Positions 5,759 through 23,181 of a stretch of 64,000 nt of DNA are shown here, one piece after another; the first letter of the stretch is position 1, and each line of letters opens with the position of its first letter. The notes under the pieces are model-generated. The model did not search any database and had not been told where the DNA came from. It saw only the letters and a program-made list of their open reading frames with translations. The DNA comes from Halosimplex salinum (GTDB taxonomy: Archaea; Halobacteriota; Halobacteria; Halobacteriales; Haloarculaceae): NCBI RefSeq assembly GCF_003730195.1, contig NZ_QWGG01000004.1, positions 1 through 64,000 on the forward strand. The letters run 5' to 3'. A program made the position numbers and the translations under genes.

Positions 5759-5819
5759 ACTGCATTATGTGGCAGAATAGTCATTTAGTTCTATCCATTA
5801 AATAACGATTTGTCTAGCT

Positions 5820-6122
5820 TCAGTTACTGTGTTGGGTGAGGCAGTAGGGGAGTCCTTTGACTTCGACGGCTTCGACGTCTGGGGCTTTGATGACGGCTTG
5901 GCCTTTGCCGTATTTTTGGAGGTCTTGTTCGTAGCCGCGGGGGATGGAGGGGACTTTGGTGATGACTTCTTCGCGGAGACCGAGGAAGATGTTGGTGTTG
6001 GTTTGTTTGAGGATGTCGCCGTCGATGTCTTCGGGGTTTTGGGTGATCATGAAGAGGCCGAGTTTGTCTTTGCGGCCTTGTTTGACGGCGTCACGAGCGC
6101 GGTTGACGATTGTGTGTCGTTT
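5820..6122 (-). pseudogene. HerA/FtsK-like ATPase, C-terminal remnant
   Basis: Reading on the minus strand, the frame gives about 100 residues with the C-terminal hallmarks of a HerA-type ATPase: RARDAVKQGRKDKLGLFMI, TQNPEDIDGDILKQ, TNTNIFLGLREEV and a final PYCL. It is bounded upstream by an in-frame TAA at 6123-6125 and has no start codon before Met at 6050. The P-loop and most of the ATPase are missing. It differs from the intact herA at 12478-14121, so it is not a simple duplication. It probably marks where a previous gene was cut when the adjoining mre11-herA cassette arrived. Confidence 0.65.
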
Positions 6123-6248
6123 TTACTTCACTTTCACCCTGGTTGGATGATGTTTAATAGTCGTCCGGTTACACGTAGTCACATACTTTCAGGCCCGTGA
6201 TTTGGTAGCACGCTCGGCTGAACAAGTACCCTCCACAACACACTGATC

Positions 6249-7766
6249 ATGCTGACACTTACGCACATCGCTGATACGCATCTTGGCCATCGACAGTACG
6301 GGTTGAAACAACGCGAGGACGATATGGTATCGACCACGCGTGCTGCGTTCCAAGAGATGATTGAGGAGCGCGGGACGGATGCGATTCTGTTACCGGGCGA
6401 CCTGTTCCACTCACGGGATTTGCGCCCGAAGATCCTGCATCAGATCGAACAGGAACTCGAACGGATACCTGATGAGGTACCGGTGTTAGTATCGCGTGGC
6501 AACCACGATGAAAACCTGACACCGCGTGACGTGACGTGGTTGAATTACCTGCATCAGCGCGGACACATCGTGTTCTTGCAAGCCAACCTGAATGCGGATC
6601 CCGAAACAGCGTGGCTCAACCCGCACGATCCGGACGAACCGGGGCAGTCTGCAGGGTTTTATGACATCGATGTCGCGGACGTAGACGGGCCGATTCGCGT
6701 GTTCGGCCTGCAGTGGCGCGGCGCGAAGACAGACCAGGCTCTCCAGCAAGTGGCGAAGGGGATCAAGGAGACGAATGAGATGCATGGGGAACCGGCGTGG
6801 ACCGTGCTGCTGGCGCATTTCGGGATGGAAGATGAGGTGCCGACGCTCGGCGGGACAGTCACCCACGGCGAACTGCGAGACGTGAAGGATGTCGTGGATT
6901 ACCTGGCGCTCGGGCACATTCACAAGCGGTACGAGTCGGGCGAGTGGATCTACAATCCCGGGTCGCCGGAAGCGCATAACACGCGAGAAGGACGGGCTGA
7001 GTGGGAGCACGGCTACTACTCGGTTACACTCAACGCCGGAGAATCTGAGGCTGGTGGTGACGCGGTTGGGTGCGACGTGGCGCATCACCCGACGAAGCGA
7101 CGGCCGTACTACCGAATTGAATTCGACGTGACCGCGCATGAGTCACCTGGTGACCTCGGAACCGCGTTTCAGGAGCACGTTCGGGATGAGCAGGCTGCGA
7201 TGACAGAATACTGCAGTCAGGACGCGTTCACGGCACAGGGTGAGCCGCGAGACCCGATTATCGACCTTCGGTTCACGGGCACGTTGCAGTTCAGCCGTGG
7301 AGATTTCCGGACGGATGAGCTTGCGGAGTGGGTGGAAGACGCGTGCGACGCGTTGTACGTCCAGGTGAATACAGGGATTCGGACGGCGAACGTGCAGCAA
7401 CTCCTCTCGGAGATTGACGAGGACGAAGTGTTCAAGGATGGGCAGTTGAACACGGCTGCGTTAGAAAACCGCGTTTTCGAGACGATTGCGAAGGAATCGA
7501 TCTACGATGACCACGCAGCCGATGTCGCTGACGTGTTAGGGAACGCTCATCAGATGGCTCAAGCTGGCGAAGCCGTTGAGGACATCCGTGACTCCGTGAG
7601 TTCGGCGCGCCAGGAGTTGTTCCCGGAGCTGACAGACGACGTCGTGCTGGACATTGAAGAAGATCCGTTCGCCGATGCCGACACAGGCGAGGAAGCGTCT
7701 GATGACACGACAGACGGCGACGAAGCAGACGGAGAGGCGGAGGCAGGGGAGGTGGTGGAGCAATGA
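6249..7766 (+). CDS. mre11: Mre11-family nuclease
   Basis: 505 residues, with every phosphodiesterase motif of Mre11/SbcD present: ADTHLG (Asp9, His11), GDLFHS (Asp51), RGNHDE (Asn85, His86), LLAHFG near residue 197, and LGHIHKR near 220. A capping domain follows, then a long acidic tail (residues 470-505). Mre11 provides the Mn-dependent nuclease of the Mre11-Rad50 DNA end-processing complex. It is the first gene of a tight operon: its stop overlaps the rad50 start by 4 nt. Its placement inside a low-GC island, next to restriction genes, suggests an accessory copy; haloarchaea usually carry a separate chromosomal mre11-rad50, which cannot be checked here. Confidence 0.93.
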   Translation: MLTLTHIADTHLGHRQYGLKQREDDMVSTTRAAFQEMIEERGTDAILLPGDLFHSRDLRPKILHQIEQELERIPDEVPVLVSRGNHDENLTPRDVTWLNYLHQRGHIVFLQANLNADPETAWLNPHDPDEPGQSAGFYDIDVADVDGPIRVFGLQWRGAKTDQALQQVAKGIKETNEMHGEPAWTVLLAHFGMEDEVPTLGGTVTHGELRDVKDVVDYLALGHIHKRYESGEWIYNPGSPEAHNTREGRAEWEHGYYSVTLNAGESEAGGDAVGCDVAHHPTKRRPYYRIEFDVTAHESPGDLGTAFQEHVRDEQAAMTEYCSQDAFTAQGEPRDPIIDLRFTGTLQFSRGDFRTDELAEWVEDACDALYVQVNTGIRTANVQQLLSEIDEDEVFKDGQLNTAALENRVFETIAKESIYDDHAADVADVLGNAHQMAQAGEAVEDIRDSVSSARQELFPELTDDVVLDIEEDPFADADTGEEASDDTTDGDEADGEAEAGEVVEQ

Positions 7767-10474
7767 GAATCACGGAAGTTGCGTTGGAAGACATCAAGTC
7801 GTATGAGGATCGGACTGTCGTGCCAATCGAAGGCGGCGTGACGGCGATTCTCGGTGAGAACGGCGCGGGGAAATCGACGGTTCAGGAGGCTATCGGATTC
7901 GCGTTGTTCGACTCGCTCCCGTTCAACAACAAGGAGTTCGTGCGGGAAGGCGCAAGTTCAGGAACAGTCGAAGTCACGTTCGAGCAAGATACACAGAACG
8001 GGACGGACCGGTACAAAGTTGTTCGATCCGTCGGCCGGTCGAAGTACGGCGTGCACCGGTATGATCCCGATGCTGACGAGTGGATCGATCAGGACATCGA
8101 TTCCAAGACGCAGTTGGTGGACTGGTTGTGTGCGCGCTTCGATGTGGAAGATGGCGACGAGCTTAGCAGTCTCTGGAGTTCCAGCATCGGGGTACCTCAA
8201 ACGCGATTCCTATCGGACTTCTCGCAAACGCCTCGAAATCGCAAGGCAACGTTCGATGCGCTCCTGAATCTGGACGCGTACGAGGAGTCGTGGGAGACGC
8301 TCAAGGACGTGCCGGACGCAATCGAGAGTCGGCAGCAGGATCTCCGTAGGGACATTGATACGCTCACCGGCGAGGTGCAAGGGTTGCCGGACGAGCGAGC
8401 GGAAGCGGAGTCGTTGGCCGATGACGTTGAGGAAATTGAAGCCGGGATCGAACGGAAAACCGGCGAGTTGTCGGAGAAAGAAGACGAGTATGAAGAGTTG
8501 GAAGCTGTTGAAGAGGAAATCGACCGCCTTGACCAGGAGGTTGATTCGCTGGAAGGGGACATCGACTCGACAGAGAGCAATTTGGGGACGGCGAAGGAGG
8601 AACTCGCGGCCGCCGAAGAGGCACAGGAGAAATGCGAGGCGAACCGGGAAGGGCACCGTCGGTACGAGGAGGCACGCGAGCGGCAGGATGAGTTAGAGGA
8701 ACAGGAGGTCGAACGGGACGCGCTCGTCGCGGACCGAGACGAACAGGAAGACACGATCCAGGCGATCGAATTTGAAGTCGAACAGCTGGAAGAGGATCTG
8801 GAAGAACTGGAGACCGCTCGGGAGACGTTGGAGGCGCGTGAAGAGGCGAAAGAACGGTATGAGGAACTCGATGACCGTATTGAGTCGTTGAAAGACCGCG
8901 AAGACGACGTAGACGCATTCGAAGTGGAGATCGAGGAGTTGGCAGAGCAGATCGAATCGAAGGAGCGCGAAATCGAGGCGAAAGAAGAGACGATTGCGGA
9001 GATAGAGGACGAGTGGGAGGGGACGACGGATCCGGAAGCTCTCTCCGGTGAGATCAACGACCGAGAGGCGAGTCGGAAGCAACTGGAGAGCGAACGTGAG
9101 CGGCTCGAAGAACAGTTAGATAGGTTGCGTGACACGGATGTTGATGCGCCGTGCCCGACGTGTGACCGTCCGTTAAACGAGGATCACCGGTCGAAGACGA
9201 TCGAGCAGCGTGAAGCCCGGATCGAGGAAATCGAGACGGAGCGTGAGGAACTCGCCGAGGAACTTGATGCGTTGCGTGAGCGGCGTGCCACGGCGCGAGA
9301 GGTCAAGCAGCGCGTCGATAAGCTCCCTGTGCATCGGGACAAAATCGAGTCGTTGGAAGGTGAGATCGAAGATTTGCGCGCCGACAAGGAAGAGACAGAG
9401 GTGGAGTTAGCGGACTTGGAAGACGAATTGTCGGATCTCCCGGATCTTGAAGCCGAGCAGGATGACTTGGAGGAGGCGTACGACGAATACCAGACTGCTG
9501 AATTCCGAGTTCAGGAGCATGCTGATGTCCCTGATGAGTTGGAGGCAAAACGGGCGGAATTAGAGGAGGAACAGTCGGTACTGGCGGAAATCGAAGACGA
9601 GTTGGAGGAGTTCGAGGGCCTGGATGAAGAGTTGACGGAGGTCAAGGAAACGCTGGAAGAGGCGGAGTCGGCACATCAAACGTATATCAAGTACGAGCAG
9701 CAAGCGTCGCAAGTGGAAGAGCGTCAGGAGAGAGTGGAAGACCTGGAGAGCGAGCTTGCAGACCTCGAAACGAATCTCGAAGAGACGAAGGCAGAACTGG
9801 AGGAGACGAAAGCGTCGTTCGATGAAGAACGATTCGAGACGCTGGAGTCAGACATCGAGGAACTCCGGGAGGAACTGGCCGGTGACCGGCGGTCATTAGA
9901 GCATAAGCGGGAGAATCTGGCGGAGGTTCGTGAAACGATCGAGGAGTTGGAGACGAAGCTAGAGGAGCGTCAGGAGAAACTTCAGCAGGTGAAGGAACTG
10001 AAAGCGGACCAGCAGTTCGCTGACTGGGTGCGGGAGAACGTCCGTGAGGCCGGGCCGAAAATGCGGGAGATCATCACCGATCGGATTGGATCCCGGGCGA
10101 ATGAGTTGTTCCGGTCGATTCGCGGCGCATCGGCTGAGACGCTGGAGTGGACGAGCGACTACGAAATCGTCGTCCACGATGCGGATGTCAGAAAGTCGTT
10201 TTCGACACTGAGCGGTGGGGAGAAGATGGCAGCTGCACTTGCGGTGCGACTGGCGATTCTCGAACAGTTAGCGTCCGTGGGGATCGCATTCTTGGACGAA
10301 CCGACGGCGAACCTCGATCGGCAAAAGAAACGGAATCTTGTCACCCAGCTCAAACAGCTGGATAGCTTCGAGCAACTCACGGTCATTAGTCACGACCAGA
10401 CGTTCGATTCGATGACTGACTACACGATCACCATCGAGAAAGACCAGCAGACGTCGGAGGTGTCGGTCAATTAA
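7763..10474 (+). CDS. rad50: Rad50-family SMC-like ATPase
   Basis: 903 residues: N-terminal Walker A GENGAGKST (31-39), two long Glu/Arg-rich coiled-coil arms, a central zinc hook CPTC (Cys464, Cys467), then the ABC signature LSGGEK (816-821) and Walker B FLDEPTANLD (Asp845, Glu846) at the C-terminus. This is the complete Rad50/SbcC layout, so two heads and a hook-mediated dimer are expected. It partners the Mre11 encoded just upstream (ATGA overlap) to bind and process DNA ends. Its stop codon shares one base with the nurA start. The coiled-coil produces spurious Ser-rich frames on the opposite strand. Confidence 0.95.
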   Translation: MRITEVALEDIKSYEDRTVVPIEGGVTAILGENGAGKSTVQEAIGFALFDSLPFNNKEFVREGASSGTVEVTFEQDTQNGTDRYKVVRSVGRSKYGVHRYDPDADEWIDQDIDSKTQLVDWLCARFDVEDGDELSSLWSSSIGVPQTRFLSDFSQTPRNRKATFDALLNLDAYEESWETLKDVPDAIESRQQDLRRDIDTLTGEVQGLPDERAEAESLADDVEEIEAGIERKTGELSEKEDEYEELEAVEEEIDRLDQEVDSLEGDIDSTESNLGTAKEELAAAEEAQEKCEANREGHRRYEEARERQDELEEQEVERDALVADRDEQEDTIQAIEFEVEQLEEDLEELETARETLEAREEAKERYEELDDRIESLKDREDDVDAFEVEIEELAEQIESKEREIEAKEETIAEIEDEWEGTTDPEALSGEINDREASRKQLESERERLEEQLDRLRDTDVDAPCPTCDRPLNEDHRSKTIEQREARIEEIETEREELAEELDALRERRATAREVKQRVDKLPVHRDKIESLEGEIEDLRADKEETEVELADLEDELSDLPDLEAEQDDLEEAYDEYQTAEFRVQEHADVPDELEAKRAELEEEQSVLAEIEDELEEFEGLDEELTEVKETLEEAESAHQTYIKYEQQASQVEERQERVEDLESELADLETNLEETKAELEETKASFDEERFETLESDIEELREELAGDRRSLEHKRENLAEVRETIEELETKLEERQEKLQQVKELKADQQFADWVRENVREAGPKMREIITDRIGSRANELFRSIRGASAETLEWTSDYEIVVHDADVRKSFSTLSGGEKMAAALAVRLAILEQLASVGIAFLDEPTANLDRQKKRNLVTQLKQLDSFEQLTVISHDQTFDSMTDYTITIEKDQQTSEVSVN

Positions 10475-11739
10475 TGCCGATCGATAAACACGGTGTCGCG
10501 TCTGAATTGGAGGCGAACGTTGACACGATTAAGACGTATCTCGAAGACGATACGGGGATCGTGGAGCGGTATCAAGACGCGTTTCAGCGGTTGCCCGACG
10601 AGTGGACGAGCGAGGAGATTCGAGCGTCGCTCCAGGACGCGTCATACCCAGGGGCGTATCCGACAGACGAGTTCGATGAGGGGGATAGTCTCATCGTTCC
10701 GTACCCCGAGAGTGACGGGTGGGAGAATCACGAGGAGGTCAACGAGTGGGCCCGCGATATTATTCGTGACGTGCCGGTGATGGCTGTCGATGGGTCACAG
10801 CTCCCGCCGACAACGCAATTCAACGTTCCGCTCGCGTACGTCCAAGCGGCATGGGCAGTCAACCACCATCACGCTGAGGGACGGCTTGACCGCGGCGTCG
10901 AAGGACGGCTCTTGACGCCTGACGAGGTCACACAAGAATCAGAGGACGGTGACTACCGGTTCGTTGATTCCCAACTCGTGGGGCATCACCGGTTCGAACA
11001 CGAAGGGCGGCTACTCATCGACCAACTCTCGGAGTTAGCTGATGCGCGTGATGCAGGTGATATCGATCAGACGCCGGTCGTGTTCTATGACGGGCCGTTG
11101 ATCGCGTCGTTTGCGAATCCGTTGAAGCCAGAGACCCGAGAGCGGTACATTTCGACGCTGAGTCGAGTTATTGCAGCGAGTCAGCACCACGAGATTCCGC
11201 TGGTCGGGTACGTTGCCGGGTCGAGCGCCACTGAGCTCGTGAAGATGACACGGCTCCTGTTACGCGAGGAATTCGGGACGGATCGCGTCATTCCGGATGC
11301 ACACGTCTTGACGGAGTTGATGAGCCCGTGGGGGGACACGACAATCCCGTTCATCTCGAAACGCGATGGGAGTATCGACGCGTTGCAGACAACGTACAAC
11401 GGGGAAGCGTACGAATTCCGCGATGACATCTTGTTCTCGTACCTGAACGTACCGCCAGGCGCTGGACTCGACCGAATCGAATTCCCCGGGTGGCTGTGCC
11501 GCAGTAACGGTCCCGACGGGTACGATTCGATGTACGAGTACACCGTCGATATTGTGCGGGCAGAAGCAGGCATCGGACGTGGCTATCCTGAAATCCTGCA
11601 ACAGGCCGACAGTGACGCTGTGTTAGACCATCAGGACCGCCAACAGTTCCAGCGCGTCGTCCAACGCTGGGCTGAATCGAACGACGTACCGCTGGAATGG
11701 GACGCCAAAGCACTAAGCAAGGAACTTCGACGACGATGA
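10474..11739 (+). CDS. nurA: NurA-domain 5'-3' nuclease
   Basis: 421 residues. The NurA active-site motif VMAVDGSQ (Asp106) and the second metal-ligand motif FYDGPL (Asp206) are both present, and the remainder matches the RNase H-like NurA fold in length. NurA is a Mn-dependent 5' to 3' exonuclease that works inside the HerA hexamer during archaeal end resection. It starts at the rad50 stop (TAATG junction), so the two are translationally coupled. The NurA-HerA pair is split here by a further gene rather than adjacent, which is unusual. Confidence 0.9.
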   Translation: MPIDKHGVASELEANVDTIKTYLEDDTGIVERYQDAFQRLPDEWTSEEIRASLQDASYPGAYPTDEFDEGDSLIVPYPESDGWENHEEVNEWARDIIRDVPVMAVDGSQLPPTTQFNVPLAYVQAAWAVNHHHAEGRLDRGVEGRLLTPDEVTQESEDGDYRFVDSQLVGHHRFEHEGRLLIDQLSELADARDAGDIDQTPVVFYDGPLIASFANPLKPETRERYISTLSRVIAASQHHEIPLVGYVAGSSATELVKMTRLLLREEFGTDRVIPDAHVLTELMSPWGDTTIPFISKRDGSIDALQTTYNGEAYEFRDDILFSYLNVPPGAGLDRIEFPGWLCRSNGPDGYDSMYEYTVDIVRAEAGIGRGYPEILQQADSDAVLDHQDRQQFQRVVQRWAESNDVPLEWDAKALSKELRRR

Positions 11740-11812
11740 TTCACCACCACACCCCACACGCACCAGCAGGATGCACCGCTCGACGACCAGACGACAGTAC
11801 GGAGACGAAGCT

Positions 11813-12478
11813 ATGACAGACACACTGGCTGACGGAGACAGTCCGGATCTCGATTCGTGCGTTCGGATTGGCAGCATCGTGTCCTCGAACAGCCATCTGG
11901 ATTACGTCGCCGAGGTGTACAAGGAACGAGACTGTGATCGTCCACCGGAACTGCACGAGCGCGAATTCGGACAACCCGTCTTCATCAAGAAAACTGTCGA
12001 CGGAACCGAGCACGCAGTCATGGGCGTGATTTATGACACGCAGTTAGTCGATCCTGACCAGGGACGAACCGGGCCGCGATTAGCGCAGGACGACCAGGCC
12101 CAATTCACGCCGGGATACATCGAAGAGCGCACCACGCTCGCTGGCGTGGCGCTTCTCGGTACCGCAGAAATCGCCGAAGATGGGACAATACAAGAGCCAA
12201 CGCATCAAATGCCGCGGTGGACGTTAGAAGTCGAGGATACCGTCTTCCACTGTCCTGATCAGGTCACGGTTTCCTTCCATACCGTCGACGATCAGATTCA
12301 GTTGGCGTACATGGATCGACTCTTAGATATTGCTGGTGACCTCGGGTCGGAGGTCATCGTCGCACTGATTGACCGGTTACGAGGGATGCTACCGGAAGAC
12401 GATCCAAATCAGCGAGTACTAGACGTGGTTGAACAGAACGTGCAGTGGCAAGCGCGGGAACAGCGAGGGATGGTCTGA
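11813..12478 (+). CDS. Unrecognised protein between NurA and HerA
   Basis: 221 residues from the ATG at 11813, chosen because GGAG lies about 10 nt upstream; an in-frame ATG at 11771 would add 14 residues. The N-terminal part (VRIGSIVSSNSHLDYVAEVY, then a glycine-containing strand region) is beta-rich and loosely resembles the HAS-barrel found at the N-terminus of HerA ATPases; the C-terminal 60 residues look helical (LLDIAGDLGSEVIVALIDRL). There is no nuclease or ATPase motif. Its stop overlaps the herA start (TGATG), so it is made in step with HerA and likely binds it or regulates NurA loading. The function is unknown. Confidence 0.7.
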   Translation: MTDTLADGDSPDLDSCVRIGSIVSSNSHLDYVAEVYKERDCDRPPELHEREFGQPVFIKKTVDGTEHAVMGVIYDTQLVDPDQGRTGPRLAQDDQAQFTPGYIEERTTLAGVALLGTAEIAEDGTIQEPTHQMPRWTLEVEDTVFHCPDQVTVSFHTVDDQIQLAYMDRLLDIAGDLGSEVIVALIDRLRGMLPEDDPNQRVLDVVEQNVQWQAREQRGMV

Positions 12479-14121
12479 TGACTGATCGATCAGACGTGGT
12501 CGGCACCGTTGCTGGACCGGGTGACGATCCGAACGAATTCGTGTTCGTGACTCCGTCGGACAAGTCGATCAAGACGGGTGAGTTCATCACGTACACTGTC
12601 TCGGTTGAAGGTGAGCCACGATCGGTGTTCGCTCGCGTGACGAACCGTGAGCTGATTCGGGGTCTCCCTGAAGGGTTCCTTGCGGATCCGGAGGTCGGGC
12701 CGGAGACAGTTGCGGCAACGCTCGGTGTGCCGACTGATGACACTGAGTTGTACCGGTTGACAGCAACGGTCATCGGGTACTACGATACGAACATGACGAC
12801 GTTCGCTAATCCTCGCCAGTTGCCTGACCCGGGGACGCCACTGTCGATTGCACCACACCAGCAACTCGAAACCGTGTTGCCGAACCTCGGCTGTGAAACT
12901 GACAGCACAGATGTCACAACACTTGACGGAGTCGCGCACATCGGCTGGCTGTTGAATCGACCAGCAGAGGCGACAAATTTACACATTCCAATCGAAGAAT
13001 TCGCTTCGACACACCTAGCGATTCTCGCTTCAACAGGGAGCGGGAAATCCTACACAGCGTCGGTCCTAATCGAGGAGATGATGCGTCCGAGCTCGCGTGC
13101 ATCACTGCTCGTGTTTGACCCACACGGTGAGTACGACACGTTGGCGGAAATGCAGGGTGAAGAGGCGTTCCAAGGTGCAGATGGGTATGAACCAAGTATC
13201 GAGTATTACGACCCGGAGCGCCTTCGAGTTCGCATCTCTGAACTTGAGATTGGTGACGTGATGGCGATCTTGGACAACCCAAGTAATCGGATGCAAGAGC
13301 GGCTTTCGACGGCGTGGCGCGCGATGCAGAGACAAGAGAGTCGGACGTGGGGTATAGACGAACTCATTGCCGAAATGGAGCGGATCTACGGCGATGATGA
13401 CGCGAGTGTCGGCGCACTAGAGTGGCGACTCCGACGGTCGATTGAACGGAATGATCTCTTCCATCCCGAAGAAAACGTTCCGCTGGACGAGATTGTAGAT
13501 CCGGGGCAGTGTACGGTGCTCCAGATGGATACGTTGGATCAGTGGGACCAGCAACTTATCACGACCGTTCTTCTGCGGCGGATGTATCGAGAGCGACTTG
13601 ATGACGTGCGAGACCGGGATTCGGATATCGAGCATCCGATTTTCGCCTTGTTCGAAGAGGGACACCGCTTTGCTCCAGCCTCCGGTGAAGCCCCATCGCT
13701 AGGGATCATGCGAACGATCACGTCTGAAGGCCGTAAGTTCGGATTCGGACTCGGGATTATCAGTCAACGTCCGTCGAAAATCGATCAAGACGTACTGTCG
13801 CAGTGCGGAACCCAGATCTCGATGCAGATCAAAAACCCGAATGACCAGGACGCGATCAAAAACTCCGTGGAGGCCGCTGGCGAGGACGTGCTTCGGGAGT
13901 TGCCCGGTTTAACCCCAGGGCAAGCGGTCGTGTCTGGTGACGCAATGAACACGCCAGCACTGATCCAAGTTCGACAGCGACGCACACCACACGGTGCTGG
14001 AAGCAGGCCAGTTATCGAAGAATGGCGCGAAGCATATGACGAACGACAACGCGAACCGACACAGTCCGAATCGGCTGATTTCGCGGAGGGAGATTCGACT
14101 GGCGTTCAGAGCTTAGACTGA
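12478..14121 (+). CDS. herA: HerA-family hexameric DNA translocase
   Basis: 547 residues. An N-terminal HAS-barrel-like region (VVGTVAGPGDDPNEFVFV) precedes a FtsK/HerA ATPase with Walker A STGSGKS (185-191), VFDPHGEYD shortly after, Walker B/catalytic FALFEEGHRF, and the sensor segment FGLGIISQRPSKID. The C-terminal tail carries a short basic stretch. HerA translocates on double-stranded DNA and drives resection with NurA and Mre11-Rad50. The ATG at 12478 overlaps the previous stop. The HerA remnant at 5820-6122 is of a different subtype, so this is the only intact copy in view. Confidence 0.92.
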   Translation: MTDRSDVVGTVAGPGDDPNEFVFVTPSDKSIKTGEFITYTVSVEGEPRSVFARVTNRELIRGLPEGFLADPEVGPETVAATLGVPTDDTELYRLTATVIGYYDTNMTTFANPRQLPDPGTPLSIAPHQQLETVLPNLGCETDSTDVTTLDGVAHIGWLLNRPAEATNLHIPIEEFASTHLAILASTGSGKSYTASVLIEEMMRPSSRASLLVFDPHGEYDTLAEMQGEEAFQGADGYEPSIEYYDPERLRVRISELEIGDVMAILDNPSNRMQERLSTAWRAMQRQESRTWGIDELIAEMERIYGDDDASVGALEWRLRRSIERNDLFHPEENVPLDEIVDPGQCTVLQMDTLDQWDQQLITTVLLRRMYRERLDDVRDRDSDIEHPIFALFEEGHRFAPASGEAPSLGIMRTITSEGRKFGFGLGIISQRPSKIDQDVLSQCGTQISMQIKNPNDQDAIKNSVEAAGEDVLRELPGLTPGQAVVSGDAMNTPALIQVRQRRTPHGAGSRPVIEEWREAYDERQREPTQSESADFAEGDSTGVQSLD

Positions 14122-14138
14122 TCACTATCTCACAGTAG

Positions 14139-14145
14139 ATTTACA
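14139..14145 (+). promoter_or_regulatory. TATA-like box of the single-repeat TBP gene
   Basis: An ATTTACA element lies 27-33 nt upstream of the ATG at 14172 with a purine-rich stretch before it. The spacing suits a leaderless archaeal transcript and means this gene can be expressed separately from the mre11-herA operon that ends at 14121. Confidence 0.45.
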
Positions 14146-14171
14146 ACACTGGTGCTCGGTGTGCCATTCAT

Positions 14172-14573
14172 ATGACTACCGAGGGACTTACCCCAGGCAC
14201 GCTACGAGACGCGCTCACTGATGTTGGTGTCGAACTGAACACGGGTGAAACAGCGGGATGCGTCGAATTAGAATCCAATTTAAATCTTAATGCGCTCGCA
14301 ATCGGTCTCGGATTAGCGAATATCGAGTACGAGCCAGAACAATTCCCCGGTTTGATTTACCACGTAGACCAACCAATGACCACCGCTGTGTTGTTCGGTA
14401 ATGGTGTAATCGCAACAGTGGATGGGATGGATGAGCCGGCAGTTACGGATGCCATTTTGACCGTGATTGAACGAGGGGAAGACCTCGGACTCATCGAAGC
14501 CGACTCAACACCATCAGTGAACGTGCCTGTCGAGTCAATTCCAGTCGCTGACATAGTTGAAACTGGGGAATGA
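14172..14573 (+). CDS. Single-repeat TBP-like protein
   Basis: 133 residues. Residues about 35-110 align with the second repeat of haloarchaeal TATA-binding protein: NLNLNALAIGLGLANIEYE, PEQFPGLIYHVDQP, TAVLFGNGVIATVDG and a final helix ending EDLGLIE. Normal TBP has two such repeats (about 185 residues); the first is absent and replaced by a 30-residue N-terminal segment of unknown type. The usual SGK and TG residues in the DNA-contacting strands are changed to NGV and VDG, so DNA binding may be weakened or altered. It might dimerise into a TBP-like saddle, bind TFB, or act as a decoy. It has its own promoter. Confidence 0.8.
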   Translation: MTTEGLTPGTLRDALTDVGVELNTGETAGCVELESNLNLNALAIGLGLANIEYEPEQFPGLIYHVDQPMTTAVLFGNGVIATVDGMDEPAVTDAILTVIERGEDLGLIEADSTPSVNVPVESIPVADIVETGE

Positions 14574-14612
14574 ATCTGATCCGGGCTGACAGCGCTGAAT
14601 CGGCACAACGTG

Positions 14613-15089
14613 TTACGGAACTTCATCTACGACATCGCGTAGACCATCTGGACTGGACCAAGCGAAGCATCGATTGTGAAGTTCGAAGAGGCGGAATTCG
14701 TTGAGATGCACCCAACTGTATGGAACTGGGGCGTCTTCGACGTCGTCTCGATTTTCAAGTCGCTCTATGATGTCTGGTTTCGCAAGATCGATATCGTTCT
14801 TGTTCGCCGCTGTGATGAGGGAGTCCAGCTCTTCTTCGGTGGTAGCTTCGTCGAGATCGTCGTTGAAGTAGATAGTCGCGGCAGCGGCGATGACGTCTGC
14901 TTCCGTGTTGAGGTTCTGTGCGGTCATCCACGCGTAGTCCCGGGGTAGCACGTAGAATTTGTCGAAGTTGTCCAACCGGCGTATCTCTCCCGACTGACCG
15001 AGCAGGCGATGGAGCGCGTGTAGTCTTCCGCGAGAGTCGGACAGAGAATCGACGAGACTAGTCCCCGAACAACCGGGATAGGAATCCAC
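14613..15089 (-). CDS. Small hypothetical protein coupled to PLD-ATPase
   Basis: 158 residues if the first ATG (15089) is used; that start lies inside the 3' end of the PLD-ATPase gene (overlap 32 nt), so the two are probably translationally coupled, though a later start is possible. The product is acidic and mainly helical, with WMTAQNLNTEADVIAAAA and two Leu/Asp-rich helices (EEELDSLI, IIERLENRDDVED). No motif or family is recognised. Its position makes it a likely partner of the PLD-ATPase, for example an inhibitor or a recognition subunit. Confidence 0.6.
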   Translation of the reverse strand: MDSYPGCSGTSLVDSLSDSRGRLHALHRLLGQSGEIRRLDNFDKFYVLPRDYAWMTAQNLNTEADVIAAAATIYFNDDLDEATTEEELDSLITAANKNDIDLAKPDIIERLENRDDVEDAPVPYSWVHLNEFRLFELHNRCFAWSSPDGLRDVVDEVP

Positions 15090-17331
15090 TGGAGTTGTCC
15101 GTATCCGATGCGTCTTCCGTGGTGGTTGACTGCTCGGTGTCTGTGCCGGTTTCGGCTGCTCCGTTCAGGAGGTCGTTGACGGAGTATCCGATCCACTCGG
15201 CGAACTCTTCGGGTGCGCCGATGTAGACGCTCGTGGACGATTTCTCGGACATGAATCGTTTGGGGAGGCGTTTCTCGTAGTCGTAGACCTCGTACTCTTC
15301 GCGGTCGAAGTCAGCTGTGATGGCATTCGGCTCCGACTCGAACGTGACACGGCCGCCTTGAATGTCGCGCTGCCACTTCAGCCGCCCCGTATCGTACGTC
15401 TTCTCGGCCGGTTCGTCGGCGGGGAAATACTCGGGTTTCTCCCGACCGGCTTCGTCGTAGAATTCGCGGACAATACGGCGGACGTCTTCGATAGTGCCGT
15501 TCCCGTCGGTCCACGGTTGTTCGGTGAGCATTCGGCGGGCCACGTAACTGAAGATCGGGTTCTGCCGTTCTAGCACGCCCGAGAGGTCTTTTTGTGCTTC
15601 GCGGAAGCCTGGATCCTCCGGGTTGGAGGGGAATGAGACGTCCATGCTCAGGATTTTCATTCGGTTCCGGAATTCGGATTTCGGGAGAGCGTCGTTGGTC
15701 GTGAAGATGAGGCAAGGCTGATCGACGCTGGTGGGTGTCCAGTCGCCCCAGTAGTTTCGGATCGGGCTCCAGCGCTGGATCTTCTCTTTTTCGGCGTCGA
15801 TGATGGCGTACGGGAAGCACGTGTCCCATTCGCGGACGCCGCGGACCTCTTTGACGCCGACGTCGTCTGCGTCCACACCGGAGATGACCGTGTTGTCGGA
15901 GACGAGTCGCAGGATGTACTCGGTGAGTTTGTCTTTCCCCGCGTCGCTCTTTCCTTCGATGTAGAGGTGCTGCAGAACGTTGTCTAGTGTTCGTGACGGT
16001 GACGACAAGGCCTCGGCGTACTGGTTGGCGAACGGGGCCCAGAACCCGTAGAGGAACGCCTCGTACATCTGCGCCATCACTGCGGTCTCGGATTGCGTGT
16101 GGCCGTGGTTCTGGACGGTCTCGATGTAGTCTTCGATGGTTTCGAGGCAGTGATCTAGAACTTCGGGGGTCGGCTCGTCGGTGGCGACGAGAATCATCTC
16201 GTCATCCTCCCCGATCACGACCTGCTCGGCCTCTGGAAGGACGGACATCGTCGGGATGGCCGTCGACTCCTTGACCTGGTTATTGTACGCGCTCAGCGGC
16301 GCGGTGATACTGTGGTCTTCGACGGTCGCCCCGCGGTCACGGAGCCCGGACCCGAACTCGTCGGCAGTGTCTTTGTCCACCTTGCTGGTTCCCATTCGTA
16401 TCTTCTCGTCGGGCGCGCGGATCCGCGGCCGGTCGAGCCCGTCCGTCAGCCCCGTTTCGTGATCTGATTCGACGAGCCCGACGTCCGGTGATTCATCCTC
16501 GTCCGGAGCGACGGTCGAGTCTTCCTCGTCCGTGGAGTCATCTGGCTCGATGACGTTGCGGTCGGCGTTCTCGGGTTCTTCGACGAATGCAACTGTCTCG
16601 TCGGCCTCCTCTGGGTCGTCAACGACGGCAGTGACCTGATCGGCGACGTCTTTCAGGTCCTCGACGGCGTCCTGATTCAGGGCGGCAGTGTCACTCACGT
16701 CGAGGTCGCCGGCTCCGACCCAGTACTCGATGCGGTTCTCCCGCTCTTCCGGCGAATCGGCTTCTTCTAGCGCCTCAACGAGCCCTTCGAGGAGCGTCTG
16801 GTCGCTGTACCCTTCGCGGTACTCGTCGATGAACCGCTCGAACTCTTCGTCCAGTTCGGTCCCGACATCGGTCGTAATGACGGAGATTTGGTTCGTATGG
16901 TACTCCCAGGAGTTCCGCGAGAGGTTCGCCGACCCTTGGACGAGCTTCACCGTGTCGTCCGGCATAACGATCCGGTAAATCTTCGAGTGGACCGTCTTCC
17001 GGTTCTTCAGCCGAATCGTGAGTCGGTCATCCTGTCGAAGTCGAACGAGTGACCTCGCCGTCGACACTTCGTTCACTTGGTCGGCGTAGTCTTCAGCGTT
17101 CCCGATAAGTACGTCCAGCGACCCGATGTCGTACTCCGTCAGCATCTGTACCATCAGCTCAGGTGTCTCCGCATACGTCACGGCGTCCACGTGACGAGCG
17201 CCTGCGAACAGATCGAGAAAGTCAGCACGCTCTTTCACCATCGCCAGGCGGTATTCCGCAGCCCCCGATCCGTAGAACTCCGGCATATCTGCGAATCGGT
17301 CGAATGAGATATTCGCTGTCAGTTCGTCCAT
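15058..17331 (-). CDS. PLD-like nuclease fused to P-loop ATPase
   Basis: 757 residues from ATG 17331; an upstream frame extension is rejected because a TATA-like box lies 25-30 nt before this ATG. The N-terminal 200 residues form a phospholipase-D-type nuclease domain with one HxK motif (His115, Lys117, HSKIYRI) followed by QGSANLSRNSW. A long acidic linker (about 250-330) leads to an ATPase with P-loop EGKSDAGKDKL near residue 460, and TTND as a likely sensor/motif C, resembling SF3/AAA ATPases. A single HxK suggests a dimer. PLD nucleases joined to ATPases occur in several phage-defence systems (DISARM DrmC, for example), but I do not recognise this exact architecture. It converges on the HerA/TBP genes. 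Confidence 0.75.
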   Translation of the reverse strand: MDELTANISFDRFADMPEFYGSGAAEYRLAMVKERADFLDLFAGARHVDAVTYAETPELMVQMLTEYDIGSLDVLIGNAEDYADQVNEVSTARSLVRLRQDDRLTIRLKNRKTVHSKIYRIVMPDDTVKLVQGSANLSRNSWEYHTNQISVITTDVGTELDEEFERFIDEYREGYSDQTLLEGLVEALEEADSPEERENRIEYWVGAGDLDVSDTAALNQDAVEDLKDVADQVTAVVDDPEEADETVAFVEEPENADRNVIEPDDSTDEEDSTVAPDEDESPDVGLVESDHETGLTDGLDRPRIRAPDEKIRMGTSKVDKDTADEFGSGLRDRGATVEDHSITAPLSAYNNQVKESTAIPTMSVLPEAEQVVIGEDDEMILVATDEPTPEVLDHCLETIEDYIETVQNHGHTQSETAVMAQMYEAFLYGFWAPFANQYAEALSSPSRTLDNVLQHLYIEGKSDAGKDKLTEYILRLVSDNTVISGVDADDVGVKEVRGVREWDTCFPYAIIDAEKEKIQRWSPIRNYWGDWTPTSVDQPCLIFTTNDALPKSEFRNRMKILSMDVSFPSNPEDPGFREAQKDLSGVLERQNPIFSYVARRMLTEQPWTDGNGTIEDVRRIVREFYDEAGREKPEYFPADEPAEKTYDTGRLKWQRDIQGGRVTFESEPNAITADFDREEYEVYDYEKRLPKRFMSEKSSTSVYIGAPEEFAEWIGYSVNDLLNGAAETGTDTEQSTTTEDASDTDNSSGFLSRLFGD

Positions 17332-17355
17332 ACACACGGCAGCGGTCTGAAACGA

Positions 17356-17361
17356 ATAAAA
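17356..17361 (-). promoter_or_regulatory. TATA-like box upstream of PLD-ATPase gene
   Basis: On the minus strand TTTTAT sits 25-30 nt before the ATG at 17331, as expected for a leaderless haloarchaeal mRNA. This supports the chosen start. Confidence 0.5.
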
Positions 17362-17389
17362 CCGTGCCGTGGGGCGGTAGTAGAACATA

Positions 17390-17421
17390 CGCTGTCGACA
17401 CTTGGTGACACTTCGACAGCG
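17390..17421. repeat. Perfect 9-bp inverted repeat upstream of PLD-ATPase gene
   Basis: CGCTGTCGA at 17390-17398 and its exact complement TCGACAGCG at 17413-17421 are separated by 14 nt. The repeat lies about 30 nt upstream of the TATA-like box of the PLD-ATPase gene and could be an operator, possibly for autoregulation. The rest of the gap 17332-17582 holds no gene; a minus-strand stretch GGCACGGGAGGATGTCA near 17430-17446 resembles ends of haloarchaeal IS200/IS605-type elements but no transposase or TnpB is present. Confidence 0.5.
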
Positions 17422-17582
17422 ATGAGCGAGACTGACATCCTCCCGTGCCGGAGACAAGGGAATTCCACGGCACTACACCGCTGGATTTGGTCGTTGATCC
17501 GCCACCTGTATTGTTAAATTTATAAGAAATAGTTGAGACAGGCAGTCTTCGAATCGTTCTATACCCTGCGTAAGCGAGATTA

Positions 17583-18020
17583 TTACTCGCTTGGTCCTCG
17601 AATCACGACTGGGCACCAGTCATCACTGTCACGGCCGTGTAAGCGTCCAGCAAATCGTCGATGTGCTTGTGTTACTGCCATGAGGAGGCGGACTTCGCTC
17701 ATTTCCCAGTGGTAATCTCCCGCATGGTCAGGGAGATGTACGTCACGGAGGAGGTATTTGGGGTGATAGTCCGGGCCCCACGCGATCAGAAATCCTTCCA
17801 CTGTGAACGTCCGGAACCCGGTCGGTCCGAAATGTAGCGCGTAGAAGGTTTCCTCTAGGTCCTCTCTGTGCCCGTCCCAAACTGAACTTCCTTCTTCAAG
17901 AAGTGTATGTAACAACTTTGCGTCGATTTCGTGTTCGTCAGCCACGGAGAGGACGATATCCTTCGGGATTGGATGCGTCCATTCCGCGTCAGCCGAGTTG
18001 GTTGTGCGTGTCTCTGTCAT
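17583..18020 (-). CDS. Hypothetical protein
   Basis: 145 residues, acidic, soluble, with a compact middle rich in aromatic residues (FYALHFGPTGFRTFTVEG, AWGPDYHPKYLLRD) and a helical C-terminal part ending in CPVVIRG. The ATG at 18020 has a TATATTT element 21-27 nt upstream, supporting expression as an independent leaderless gene. I recognise no family and see no catalytic motif. It sits between the PLD-ATPase promoter region and a repeat-containing gap, so it may be part of the defence cargo. Confidence 0.65.
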   Translation of the reverse strand: MTETRTTNSADAEWTHPIPKDIVLSVADEHEIDAKLLHTLLEEGSSVWDGHREDLEETFYALHFGPTGFRTFTVEGFLIAWGPDYHPKYLLRDVHLPDHAGDYHWEMSEVRLLMAVTQAHRRFAGRLHGRDSDDWCPVVIRGPSE

Positions 18021-18136
18021 AGTGCTTCTGAACGGTTGCGTATATTTGCTTGCCGTTCAGGTACACCGGCAAAATAACCACCGTGGTTTAAACCCTGGCC
18101 CGCTGAGAGCACCGCCCCCCGGATTCGGGAAATACG

Positions 18137-18213
18137 ACGAGAGCCGCAGTAAGTACTACTCTCTGCCGGCTCGGATTTTCCGAATCCTGCTGTGATGGCG
18201 TCGGTAATTCAAT
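18137..18213 (+). repeat. Diverged direct repeat, left copy (segment 1)
   Basis: These 77 nt align without gaps to 21026-21102 (about 80% identical by eye; both contain CCGAATCCT and TGATGGCGTCGGT). The pair brackets the DNA methyltransferase gene. The gap 18021-18679 around it has no convincing gene, only this repeat, its second segment and the methyltransferase promoter. Confidence 0.75.
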
Positions 18214-18403
18214 GGAACGTCTAGAACCGCACTCATGCGAGCGGCACAGTCTGGATACGGACGTTCAACATTCTTCAGGTTCTGAAAGGCGCGCTGCTCA
18301 TCACACCGCCGTTAGTGCTTGTGGCCGTATCAGATCGGATGTGCCTCTGATTGGGTGCCTGTAGGTATGATCCTAAGAACGTATCAACCAAGATGTGTCC
18401 CTC

Positions 18404-18447
18404 ATAGCGGCTGAGTGCCGTTGTTCTGGAGAAAGCATTACATCGAA
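18404..18447 (+). repeat. Diverged direct repeat, left copy (segment 2)
   Basis: This stretch, starting ATAGCGGCTGAG and containing TGTTCTGGA, matches 21101-21144. In the right-hand copy segments 1 and 2 are contiguous, while here 190 nt separate them, so either this copy gained an insert or the other lost one. Confidence 0.65.
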
Positions 18448-18643
18448 GAGCGGTTTCACGCGCGCTTGGTATCGCTGATCGTTCTCGTTGTTCGCCGTCT
18501 AAACAAGAACTATGGTTCTAGGAAATTCGACGGGGCCCTCTTGGAATCGCCGTGGACGGGGCTAAGAAGCATGTCTGTCGTGGTGTCCGGTGCGGCCGTA
18601 GCTGTGCAGTGAGTAGAACGGTAACTCCCTGAGTGGCTTACCC

Positions 18644-18653
18644 TTTTAAAAAA
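18644..18653 (+). promoter_or_regulatory. TATA box of DNA methyltransferase gene
   Basis: TTTTAAAAAA lies 27-36 nt upstream of the ATG at 18680, the expected position for a leaderless transcript, and fixes the methyltransferase start. Confidence 0.6.
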
Positions 18654-18679
18654 CCAGCTCCTGAAACTGCATTACTCCG

Positions 18680-20971
18680 ATGTCTCGCACTACTTCAGAA
18701 ACAAAGTCCGTCGGTCGATTACGACCGTCTACTGGTGAGTGCTACAACTCTCAAGATACCGAACGGGTCACCGCCACCCAGAGTGCTAGTGTCGTGTCGC
18801 ATATCACTCCAACCGGGACTGAGAGACTGAGCGTCAGTGACTGGGAACCTGTTCCGGACCGATTCGACGAGAGCACGCATGAAACCCTTGTAGAGAGGCT
18901 CCGGACGGCAGCCGACGCTCTTACCGCGACCATCGATTCTGCTCTGCCCGAGTCCCTACAGGATCAGGTTACGGAGTGGTGCGCACTCCACGGGCTTGAT
19001 ACTCCGGCTACGACGCATACTCGGACGATCATCGCTCGGCAAGCTGTTCTGAACGTGTTTCTCAAGACGACACTCTACGAGTGGCACCACCAGCACGCCG
19101 ACCTGCCATCGCTGCCCACCGATACGCGAGAGGCACTTCGACGAGCAGCGGATCAGACAGAGAATCCAGCGTTCAGCGAGTACGTTCTTGATGAGATTGT
19201 CTGGTTCGCTGACGACGCCGATCTCGAACCGGTCGTCGATGCTCGGGACTGGTTGCTGGAGTCGGGAGAGCCGGCTGAAGCCATCGGCCGGCTCTATGCA
19301 GACCTGACGTCGAACGACGACCGCCAGATACTCGGTCAATTCCGGACGCCTCCATCCGTCGGGACGCTCATGCAGGCGTGGGCAGCCGGTGGCGATGACA
19401 GTGTGCTTGACCCCGGGATGGGAGCTGGTGTCCTAGCAAGCCCATTCCACCCGCAGTGGGAGGTAAGTGCAGAACCAGCCCACGTTAACGGCATTGACAA
19501 GAGTCCCCTCTCAAACCTCATGGGGACGACCGCGCTCACGCTGTACGGGCAGGCGCACGACCCGCGTACGACTGATTTTCTCGACCTCTCACCAGCAGAC
19601 CTGCAGCGAGATGTCGACGCGATCATCTGCAACCCTCCCTACACGAGTGGCGATTCGCTCCCGGCAGCGTACAAAGACCGAATCAACACGCAAATAGAAC
19701 AGTCGATCGGGAGCGAAATCAGCGCACGCTCACCGCTCCATGCATATTTCATCTACCACGCACGACAGTTCCTCTCTGCAGGGGATCGCGCAGCCTTCAT
19801 CACACCGCAAAGCCTCCTCACGACACGTTACGGAGAATCCCTCAAGCAGTACCTCCTAGAGGTGTTCTCGATCAAAGCGTTCGTCCAATTCAACCCGGCT
19901 GGTGAACGAATCTTCCCGGACGCTCACACGACGGCCCTCATCACATTCTTAGAAGCAACACCTGAGAATGAATCAGATGGCGAAACGCGGTTCATTCGTG
20001 TTGATGACTCGGTTAGCGGGTATGAACTTCGTGACGCAGTCAAGGAGGGTGAGTCGGGGCGCACCGACTGGGGGTTCATCAACTGCGTGCAACAAACACA
20101 GCTCGATCCAGTCAAGAACTGGGAATCATTATTCACCCCGACGGACATCGATACGAGCAGTTTCAGACGCCTTGACGAGTTCGCCACAGTACATCGTGGC
20201 GTGACGACTGGCGCAGTCAATTTCTTCTGCCTCTCACAGGCCGACGTTGACGACCTCGAATTAGCCAACGAGCATCTTTCCCGGCTGATTCGGCGGCCAA
20301 GACTCGTCGACGGGTATGATTTCCGTGACGAAGACTGGGAGGAACTACGAGGGAACGGTGAGGACGTGTGGTTGTTCGATCCTGACTTGATCCAAGAGAT
20401 CCCGGAGTCGATCCGCGTATTTACCGAGCAGATGGCTGAGGACTCATCGGTACTACCAGACGACGACTCCGGCAGGGTAGCGAATGTGCTTGCATATCTG
20501 CGTGACGGCGTTAGCAAGCACGGTCTATCAGAGACGACTACGTTCGAAGATCGTCCGTACTGGTACCGGCCGAGGAGACAAGACTCTCCCCAGGTTCTGA
20601 TTCAAAACGCGAGCGGAGACGGATTCACGTTCCTGCTGAATGAGACACCGGCCCGAAACATCCACAATTTCGATGGACTCTACGACGTAACGCTGAACGA
20701 GACGGAACTGAAGGCGTTGCTCGCGTATTTGAATAGTAGCGTTGCCGAGCGCGTCGTTTCCAATTACACGCAGACTCGGCAAGGTGGTTTGGAAAAATTG
20801 GGGCCGGGAGCTCTCAAAAAACTGCCTGTGATTGATGTGACCGACATCGATGATGAGTTGACGACTGACCTTGCTGACTTATTCGATACGCTGCGAGAGA
20901 CCACACGGCGCGACGATGATTGCGAGTCCGTCATTAATCGCATCGATGCTGTACTCCAGCAGACCCTGTGA
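18680..20971 (+). CDS. N6-adenine-type DNA methyltransferase (Eco57I/TaqI-like)
   Basis: 763 residues. After an N-terminal helical region of about 200 residues come GQFRTPPSVGTLM (motif X), VLDPGMGAGVLAS (SAM motif I, near 242-254), and the catalytic NPPY at 318-321 (motif IV), then a long C-terminal region containing a probable target-recognition domain and ending with KLPV-type segments typical of gamma-class enzymes. It should methylate adenine N6. No PD-(D/E)xK nuclease motif is evident at the N-terminus and no restriction gene is adjacent, so it looks like a solitary methylase, or a type IIG-like enzyme that lost its nuclease. It is flanked by diverged direct repeats, suggesting it entered as a cassette. 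Confidence 0.85.
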   Translation: MSRTTSETKSVGRLRPSTGECYNSQDTERVTATQSASVVSHITPTGTERLSVSDWEPVPDRFDESTHETLVERLRTAADALTATIDSALPESLQDQVTEWCALHGLDTPATTHTRTIIARQAVLNVFLKTTLYEWHHQHADLPSLPTDTREALRRAADQTENPAFSEYVLDEIVWFADDADLEPVVDARDWLLESGEPAEAIGRLYADLTSNDDRQILGQFRTPPSVGTLMQAWAAGGDDSVLDPGMGAGVLASPFHPQWEVSAEPAHVNGIDKSPLSNLMGTTALTLYGQAHDPRTTDFLDLSPADLQRDVDAIICNPPYTSGDSLPAAYKDRINTQIEQSIGSEISARSPLHAYFIYHARQFLSAGDRAAFITPQSLLTTRYGESLKQYLLEVFSIKAFVQFNPAGERIFPDAHTTALITFLEATPENESDGETRFIRVDDSVSGYELRDAVKEGESGRTDWGFINCVQQTQLDPVKNWESLFTPTDIDTSSFRRLDEFATVHRGVTTGAVNFFCLSQADVDDLELANEHLSRLIRRPRLVDGYDFRDEDWEELRGNGEDVWLFDPDLIQEIPESIRVFTEQMAEDSSVLPDDDSGRVANVLAYLRDGVSKHGLSETTTFEDRPYWYRPRRQDSPQVLIQNASGDGFTFLLNETPARNIHNFDGLYDVTLNETELKALLAYLNSSVAERVVSNYTQTRQGGLEKLGPGALKKLPVIDVTDIDDELTTDLADLFDTLRETTRRDDDCESVINRIDAVLQQTL

Positions 20972-21025
20972 TTCAGCGTTCGGTTCTGACTCAGATACTT
21001 GGCTTGGTGATCCCGACGCTCCTTC

Positions 21026-21144
21026 ACGAGAGTCGCGGTAAATACCACTCTCAGCCGGATCGGACTTCCCGAATCCTACGATGATGGCGTCGGTGACACA
21101 ATAGCGGCTGAGTATGGATGTTCTGGAACAAGCAATACCACGAG
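21026..21144 (+). repeat. Diverged direct repeat, right copy
   Basis: This sequence starts 55 nt after the methyltransferase stop and matches 18137-18213 (21026-21102) and 18404-18447 (21101-21144). Together the copies frame a unit of about 2.9 kb carrying the methyltransferase. The orientation is direct, not inverted, so this fits an ancient duplication or recombination product better than IS terminal repeats. Confidence 0.7.
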
Positions 21145-21209
21145 ATCCACTGAGGATTCTGGCGTTCGGTAGAATGTACGTACTCACGTACTTGTGGACG
21201 TACACATGG

Positions 21210-21281
21210 ATGTACACAAGTACGTACATAGAGACGTACACAAGTACGTACATAGAGACGTACACAAGTACATACCCAGAG
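21210..21281. repeat. 24-bp tandem repeat, three copies, GTAC-rich
   Basis: Three consecutive 24-nt units occupy 21210-21233, 21234-21257 and 21258-21281, with partial copies upstream from 21174. Each unit contains ACGTAC-ACAA-GTACGT, a 6-bp inverted repeat, so the array is a row of small palindromes. Because 24 is a multiple of three, both strands stay open and encode eight-residue Val-His/Tyr repeats, but no start, promoter or family supports a protein. It lies between the methyltransferase and the toxin-antitoxin-like pair and may be a protein-binding array. Confidence 0.8.
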
Positions 21282-21346
21282 ACGTACTGCCGAATGCTTG
21301 CCATCCTCATCCCAGTGCCGTCACTGAGAGATTCGAAAGCACCGAG

Positions 21347-22222
21347 TTAGTTGGACGAGGGGTGAACAGTCTCCCCTTCTCGGTCAAGAATTTCCTTTTC
21401 GACGAGACGATCGATCCCAGCAGACACCGCCTCCTCGTCGCCAACGGAGAGCTCTCGGACGTTCGAAAGAACACGTTCGCTGATCGCGCGTGGACTCCGA
21501 AGACCCTCATCGACCGCTTCCAAGATACCGTACTCAACTTCGAATTCGGTTGCGAACTCCGACACGCGATCCGTAAACGAGGATGGCAGCCCAGAAAGCG
21601 ACTGTACAGCCACCTCGATAGTAAACAACGGGTGAGATTGATTACGGATATGCGTCGCTTCAATTGACCCCGTATTGAACGGGCGCTGTTCCTCAATCTC
21701 GTTGAGGATCACTTCGTAGGCAAGTCCACGCTGCGCGTACGTCCGCATATCCTCAATGTCGCGTCGTCTGCCAGCCCCTAAGTCACCGCCGGACACTGCC
21801 TTCAACAAGAACAAATCCTCGTCAGCGAGCACGTACGCCGTTGCATACTCCCCTGTCCAGAACTCGTCCGCCCGGTCGTGCATGCTCTCTGTGATCCAGA
21901 CTTTCCCGACAACCTGTTGCTCAAACAAGTCAACCCGAAACCCGCGGTCGGGATGGTAGAGCTCAACCGTTTTCCCAACCCCTTCGAATGACGCGGTCGG
22001 CTCACCCGTCACCTGAAACCCTTGTTCTTGAAGGGCGTGATAGACGTGTTCGAATTCGGTTGGCACGCCGAGGGCCAAGTCGATATCTTCGGTTTGGTCT
22101 TTCAGCCCGCGAACTGTCATTGCAGACCCGCCAAGGAGGTACACGTCCACCGATTCTGAGAGCCACTCGTCAAACTCGGCAAGAAACGTCTTGATGGCCT
22201 CCTCGCCGCTGAAGACGGTCAT
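21347..22222 (-). CDS. AbiEii-like nucleotidyltransferase (toxin candidate)
   Basis: 291 residues. The N-terminal half shows the minimal nucleotidyltransferase motif: VYLLGGSAM (Gly31-Ser33) and TEDIDLAL with Asp46 and Asp48 as metal ligands, followed by a third acidic strand (FRVDLFEQ). The C-terminal third looks like an added winged-helix region (AISERVLSNV, GIDRLVEKEIL). Proteins of this type act as toxins or tRNA-modifying nucleotidyltransferases in AbiE/MenT-type systems. The start codon directly follows the stop of the upstream regulator gene with no gap, so they form one operon. It is a type IV/VII-like toxin-antitoxin candidate; activity is inferred. Confidence 0.75.
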   Translation of the reverse strand: MTVFSGEEAIKTFLAEFDEWLSESVDVYLLGGSAMTVRGLKDQTEDIDLALGVPTEFEHVYHALQEQGFQVTGEPTASFEGVGKTVELYHPDRGFRVDLFEQQVVGKVWITESMHDRADEFWTGEYATAYVLADEDLFLLKAVSGGDLGAGRRRDIEDMRTYAQRGLAYEVILNEIEEQRPFNTGSIEATHIRNQSHPLFTIEVAVQSLSGLPSSFTDRVSEFATEFEVEYGILEAVDEGLRSPRAISERVLSNVRELSVGDEEAVSAGIDRLVEKEILDREGETVHPSSN

Positions 22223-23179: not shown

Positions 23180-23181
23180 CC

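Follow-up and report, generated by a model that had tools for sequence, protein, structure and literature searches.

Few proteins are as conserved across archaea and eukaryotes as TBP, which normally has two lobes, and this raises the question of what a gene encoding a single TBP repeat is doing behind a set of DNA-processing genes in Halosimplex salinum. In the window, the whole 64,000-nucleotide stretch of DNA that was analysed, this gene (tbp1, a half-TBP; 14172..14573, + strand) starts 50 bases 3′ of herA and closes an mre11-rad50-nurA-HAS-herA cassette. The reading frame is intact and closed on both sides, with an ATG start, 133 codons and a TGA stop. The product is laid out as an N-terminal segment (residues 1–26), one TBP repeat (27–109) and an acidic tail (110–133).

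Pfam finds a single TBP stretch in this protein (PF00352, residues 29–96, E 1.2e-12), and residues 29–109 fall on the last ~80 positions of the NCBIfam TBP models generally and on positions 106–186 of the haloarchaeal TBP model, i.e. the second repeat. Archaeal TBPs in the PDB are matched at 1.7e-18 by phmmer. The AlphaFold2 model, made from an input alignment of 21 rows, is of one complete repeat with a core pLDDT of 86–91 (strand 27–32, helix 39–46, strands 51–85, helix 88–104), outside which a short helix is predicted at the N-terminus and disorder in the tail. When this model was searched with Foldseek, all 44 matches at E≤0.001 were TBPs, the best of them with an rmsd of about 1.1–1.5 Å over 81 columns. 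Pfam, AlphaFold and Foldseek thus agree on a TBP fold, present as one repeat rather than as two in tandem in one chain. The original prediction, that the 133-residue product corresponds to the second TBP repeat only and would be modelled as a saddle repeat, is borne out by these three methods together with NCBIfam and phmmer. By sequence, tbp1 is a TBP repeat whose ancestor was the second repeat of haloarchaeal TBP. The host has other TBPs besides: four further TBP genes, all two-lobed, are found elsewhere in the genome, and tbp1 shares 50% identity over the repeat with the main one.

Half-TBPs comprise seven distinct members in five lineages and at least eight haloarchaeal genomes. Four other genomes have full-length relatives: Halovenus salina JCM 30072 (99%), the Haloarculaceae genome G308 (92%), Halorubrum amylolyticum ZC67 (92%) and, at 58%, Halosimplex pelagicum R2. 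More distant members are found in G259 (134 aa; L243:9341-9745, − strand), G315 (236 aa, with a zinc ribbon; L229:8864-9574, − strand) and G049 (237 aa, with two zinc ribbons; L144:8626-9339, − strand). The N-terminal segment and one repeat are common to all, and most carry an acidic tail with an IPV/FPI-like core that is conserved between lineages. By the first profile, half-TBPs were present in at least 4 of 146 Haloarculaceae genomes (5 with G259), at least 1 of 170 of the Halorubrum family (2 with G315) and 0 of 125 of family f7, counts that are lower bounds, since only about ten candidates per genome were scored in two 392-genome searches, which divergent half-TBPs could escape. Carriage as virus or plasmid cargo was rejected, as there was no half-TBP in IMG/VR contigs (where those TBPs read were two-repeat), in phage records, or among the plasmid matches covering the tbp1 protein. 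Two other candidates were dismissed: an ORF in G026 (L245 9021-9431), which encodes a divergent TBP that includes a portion of repeat 1, and one in G324 (L244), which retains every DNA contact in a canonical repeat 2 and is apparently a broken tbp gene. The G026 region (L245:9021-10289) holds a tandem pair of divergent TBP genes behind a type I restriction-like operon, one of the pair having a partial repeat 1 only.

In the IQ-TREE phylogeny, all seven distinct half-TBPs form a single clade (100/99) nested within haloarchaeal repeat 2, on long branches that call for caution. The clade still receives 99/98 after removal of strand S1 and the DNA-facing columns, and convergent, independent origins are therefore disfavoured.

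Half-TBPs are under purifying selection, with a pairwise dN/dS of 0.22–0.25 among close copies and of 0.12 against the copy in H. pelagicum R2, for which dS is near saturation. The herA genes of the same cassettes give 0.02–0.06, i.e. tbp1 evolves faster, and the half-TBP is thus maintained, yet constrained less than HerA. The faster evolution (0.22 vs 0.02–0.06) would suit a non-functional tbp relic riding on a mobile cassette, as would a 149-base 3′ half-TBP remnant behind an insertion in cassette L189, a clean absence from cassette L191 (HerA 98%) and a Halorubrum copy whose stop comes one codon early. Such a relic is highly improbable, since every one of the five lineages has an intact frame, dN/dS lies well below 1, the tail is conserved, and losses and retentions are concerted. 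The concern that the frame might be broken or unique to this genome is set aside by the unbroken ORF, the seven distinct members and the dN/dS values.

Those losses fall on the DNA-binding face. Which residues of the repeat touch DNA is established from TBP structures, and these were compared between 77 distinct repeat-2 sequences of two-repeat TBPs and the 7 half-TBPs. The polar contacts are near-invariant in the former (Asn 77, Arg 77, Ser 75, Lys/Arg 77, made up of 73 Lys and 4 Arg, and Thr 74) vs Asn 0, Arg 1, Ser 1, Lys/Arg 0 and Thr 0 in the latter; half-TBPs therefore lack, in a concerted way, the polar minor-groove and phosphate contacts of a functional TBP. In tbp1, codons 77–85 (NGVIATVDG; 14400..14426, + strand) stand where repeat 2 has its DNA-facing SGKLVITGG strand. 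The replacement of SGKLVITG by NGVIATVDG, together with YR becoming YH, substantiates the earlier suggestion that DNA-face residues were altered. Basic residues number 0–1 on sheet strands S3–S5 of half-TBPs vs 2–3 in two-repeat TBPs, and 1–4 vs 4–9 in the 72-residue core, and the whole tbp1 protein has 0 Lys, 2 Arg and a net charge of −22. Haloarchaeal TBPs otherwise keep the DNA face unacidified (PMC4230888).

A dimeric saddle acting on TATA, one of the functions first proposed, is disfavoured because tbp1 has so few basic residues and the Asn, Lys and Thr contacts are absent in all members. A homodimeric saddle, or a heterodimer with a full TBP, might instead bind DNA or another nucleic acid with a different specificity: the lobe is complete, the intercalating phenylalanine pair (F58 and F75 in tbp1) is present in 7/7 half-TBPs, and bacterial enzymes contain single TBP lobes that are able to bind nucleic acid (PMC7221094). 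With those same contacts gone throughout and a sheet almost without basic residues, this too is decidedly improbable.

The acidic stirrup, by contrast with the TATA contacts, has been retained. Codons 54–62 (EPEQFPGLI; 14331..14357, + strand) are, in alignment with the 77 TBPs, the equivalent of the TFB-contact loop of TBP repeat 2, and acidic residues occupy the two TFB-contact positions in 6/7 and 7/7 half-TBPs (E54 and E56 in tbp1), with one member having Gln at such a position. Stirrup positions C.L3.2/C.L3.4 are TFB contacts conserved in archaea and eukaryotes (PMC7221094), and from a match of the numbering we infer that E54 and E56 correspond to them. This residue pattern suggests that half-TBPs have lost TATA binding and probably kept the TFB surface.

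The reading we tentatively favour, at a probability of roughly 0.4, is that tbp1 is a secondarily halved TBP C-lobe whose TATA contacts have been lost and which may act as a TFB-binding decoy or adaptor. Of the functions first proposed, titration of TFB fits best, because the acidic residues of the putative TFB contact have survived and the TATA contacts have not. A haloarchaeal TBP has lost its N-terminal lobe and TATA contacts, retaining the fold and the stirrup, through which tbp1 would bind TFB. As a decoy, it would fill the TBP site on TFB without binding DNA, and initiation would be damped; as an adaptor, it would recruit TFB and RNA polymerase, or its fused zinc ribbon, to a neighbouring ATPase/nuclease complex. 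For the conserved acidic tail, a role in docking or control is likely. The host genome encodes 25 TFIIB repeats, and half-TBP carriers are rich in TFBs; no TFB gene lies near tbp1, the nearest on the window’s contig being at 192.6 kb. Several points weigh against a TFB-based reading. The acidic stirrup also belongs to the turn of the repeat, TBP repeat 1 is likewise acidic there, and most cassettes work without a half-TBP. TFB binding by TBP normally also involves bent DNA, so a DNA-free lobe may bind TFB weakly.

The cassette that tbp1 closes lies entirely on the + strand. Accessory copies of mre11 (6249..7766; PF00149 and NCBIfam Mre11 models, with the order conserved in related loci) and rad50 (7763..10474; NCBIfam Rad50, 2.2e-70) are followed by the nuclease gene nurA (10474..11739; PF09376, 9e-25), a gene for a 235-aa HAS-barrel-like protein (11771..12478) and the translocase gene herA (12478..14121; PF01935, 4.3e-36; PADLOC HerA, 2e-48), for which a GTG at 12445 is a possible start. 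The 235-aa protein has no Pfam match, and its AlphaFold2 model (pLDDT 79.8) has confident Foldseek matches that are all HerA-type. The model resembles the N-terminal (HAS-barrel) domain of HerA without the ATPase and with a helical C-terminus, making a stand-alone HerA cap or NurA adaptor its candidate role. The five-gene cassette (6249-14121) is patchy and mobile, PADLOC covers only its HerA part, and it is a candidate for a defence system in its own right. H. volcanii is without HerA/NurA (PMC7776575).

About 19 kb of the window (4172-23445) are near-identical to Halovenus salina JCM 30072 (99.6% over 16.9 kb), which indicates that the whole defence island was recently transferred between genera. 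The genes that flank the cassette and make this a defence island are a GmrSD-like restriction gene (393-2522), an AAA_15/OLD-like nuclease (3607-5493) and an Eco57I-like N6-methylase (18680-20971). Downstream of tbp1, a 158-aa ORF (14613-15089) corresponds to the 3′ portion of a 252-aa gene. L062/L065 have that gene intact, together with an additional gene, and in the window a deletion joins the ORF to a PLD-type gene (15058-17457). Between the methylase and a further gene pair, repeats coding YVxxYV-like motifs (20879-21310) differ in length in Halovenus salina.

A search of 392 genomes of the order for the cassette’s HAS gene was positive for 37, and gene order is constant in the 35 cassette loci read, bar copies degraded or cut at contig ends. 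Association of the half-TBP with herA in other genomes, first raised as a possibility, holds only in part: cassette and half-TBP also occur together in three other genera, and the half-TBP stands behind herA in four near-identical cassettes and as a fragment in a fifth. A full half-TBP 3′ of herA is confined to those four closely related copies and is absent from the other cassettes examined. The half-TBP was therefore rejected as a fixed part of the mre11-herA operon. Since most of the 37 cassettes in 392 genomes are without one, and relatives lie behind a Shango operon and an Orc1/Cdc6-like gene, it is an accessory to DNA-processing modules, mobile and optional.

In H. pelagicum R2, the half-TBP begins about 100 bases 3′ of sngC in an operon that PADLOC calls as Shango, a known defence system (SngA 4e-83, SngB 6e-172, SngC 4e-266); an assignment of this operon to PbeABCD did not fit. 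The half-TBP is not a member of the sngABC operon as such: it accompanies a single Shango operon, the two further Shango loci among 146 Haloarculaceae genomes lack it, and there is no Shango in the window. At the H. pelagicum R2 locus (L020:12267-19001, L063:1-4138), an HNH gene and a further set resembling mre11-rad50-nurA-herA lie just downstream of Shango and the half-TBP. In G393 (L227:8399-18449 with L219), a Shango operon adjoins a truncated herA of the window type and a second, divergent mre11-rad50-nurA-HAS-herA cassette, and thus shows how such modules mix. The half-TBP of G259 lies about 45 bases 3′ of an Orc1/Cdc6-like ATPase gene.

Three lineages therefore place the half-TBP directly behind a same-strand ATPase or helicase gene (herA, sngC or Orc1/Cdc6-like), which is what would be seen if tbp1 belonged to the neighbouring ATPase/nuclease complex as a structural or regulatory subunit, its TBP lobe a mere scaffold without TFB contact, and its N-terminal segment and acidic tail binding HerA, SngC or the Orc1-like ATPase. 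The tail, conserved between lineages and predicted to be disordered, is like many interaction tails. This arrangement is possible but unlikely: the three ATPases are mutually unrelated, cassettes in most genomes work without a half-TBP, and the retained acidic stirrup would be left unexplained.

The zinc-ribbon forms have other surroundings. That of G315 (L229:2336-9574) sits amid Ser/Thr kinase, PP2C, FHA and double-zinc-ribbon genes, with a TbsP-like regulator adjoining, and the neighbours in G049 look housekeeping. Such signalling and ordinary chromosomal settings would be expected of a dominant-negative or buffering TBP paralogue (through lobe exchange), or of a promoter-specific cofactor, without any link to neighbouring genes, and haloarchaea already vary their TBPs, e.g. 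in tbpC-like proteins without the first phenylalanine pair (PMC4230888). This is improbable, given that the lineages without zinc ribbons turn up repeatedly in mobile DNA or defence modules. The window neighbourhood and the Shango copy do have a genuine link to defence, which the family as a whole does not share; no general defence role follows, because one of the five known lineages has housekeeping surroundings and one a kinase/phosphatase module.

In a defence setting, the halved C-lobe favoured above would slow viral and host transcription during the action of the nuclease module. A more specific form of this, a defence-linked trap in which, on infection, the C-lobe stirrup would bind TFB, block TBP-TFB-promoter assembly and so switch off transcription while HerA-NurA/Mre11-Rad50 or Shango attacks the invader, is rather unlikely. 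If true, halving TBP would have given archaea an equivalent of an anti-sigma factor.

The TATA-like box with which tbp1 had been credited is TTTACAAC (14140..14147, + strand), 32 bases 5′ of the ATG and kept in all four cassette copies. It is weaker than claimed: about 20% of shuffles match as well (p about 0.2), so it is weak evidence alone. The Shango-linked half-TBP has a better box, ATTATAAA, at the same distance (shuffle p 0.09), and judged from these motifs, separate, leaderless expression of tbp1 is plausible.

Among the known systems that come close to tbp1 is the C-terminal lobe of archaeal TBP, with which tbp1 shares the fold, descent (being nested in haloarchaeal repeat 2) and the stirrup EYEPEQFPGLIY, whereas tbp1 has one repeat, no TATA contacts, an extra N-terminal segment and a 24-residue acidic tail. 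The tbpC-like TBPs (Becker et al. 2014, PMC4230888) are likewise haloarchaeal paralogues with DNA binding degraded in one lobe; they keep both lobes and lose the first-lobe phenylalanines, whereas in tbp1 the first lobe is gone, the phenylalanines are kept and the polar contacts are lost. The lone TBP lobes of bacterial nucleases and glycosylases (PMC7221094) are ancient single-lobe forms, whereas tbp1 is a recent halving of a two-lobe TBP. In Sulfolobales, TFS4 is a transcript-cleavage-factor paralogue turned inhibitor that appears on virus infection (PMC5715097, PMC9501531). By analogy, both would be duplicated general transcription factors stripped of their own activity, but factor and target differ, and inhibition has been shown for TFS4 and is proposed for tbp1. 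The literature searched, which did not extend to an older TBP-superfamily review (2013), describes haloarchaeal TBPs with a damaged first lobe (PMC4230888) and contains no earlier description of a single-lobe, TATA-contact-free TBP family.

Half-TBPs amount to a natural separation-of-function experiment, in which nearly all polar TATA contacts have been lost and the TFB surface kept. They offer a way to ask if a C-lobe on its own is enough to engage TFB, and if archaeal initiation can be controlled or shut down by decoys of general factors, as TFS4 suggests for RNA polymerase. Lying as they do beside several unrelated DNA-processing or defence modules, they suggest that in archaea transcription and defence against viruses are linked.
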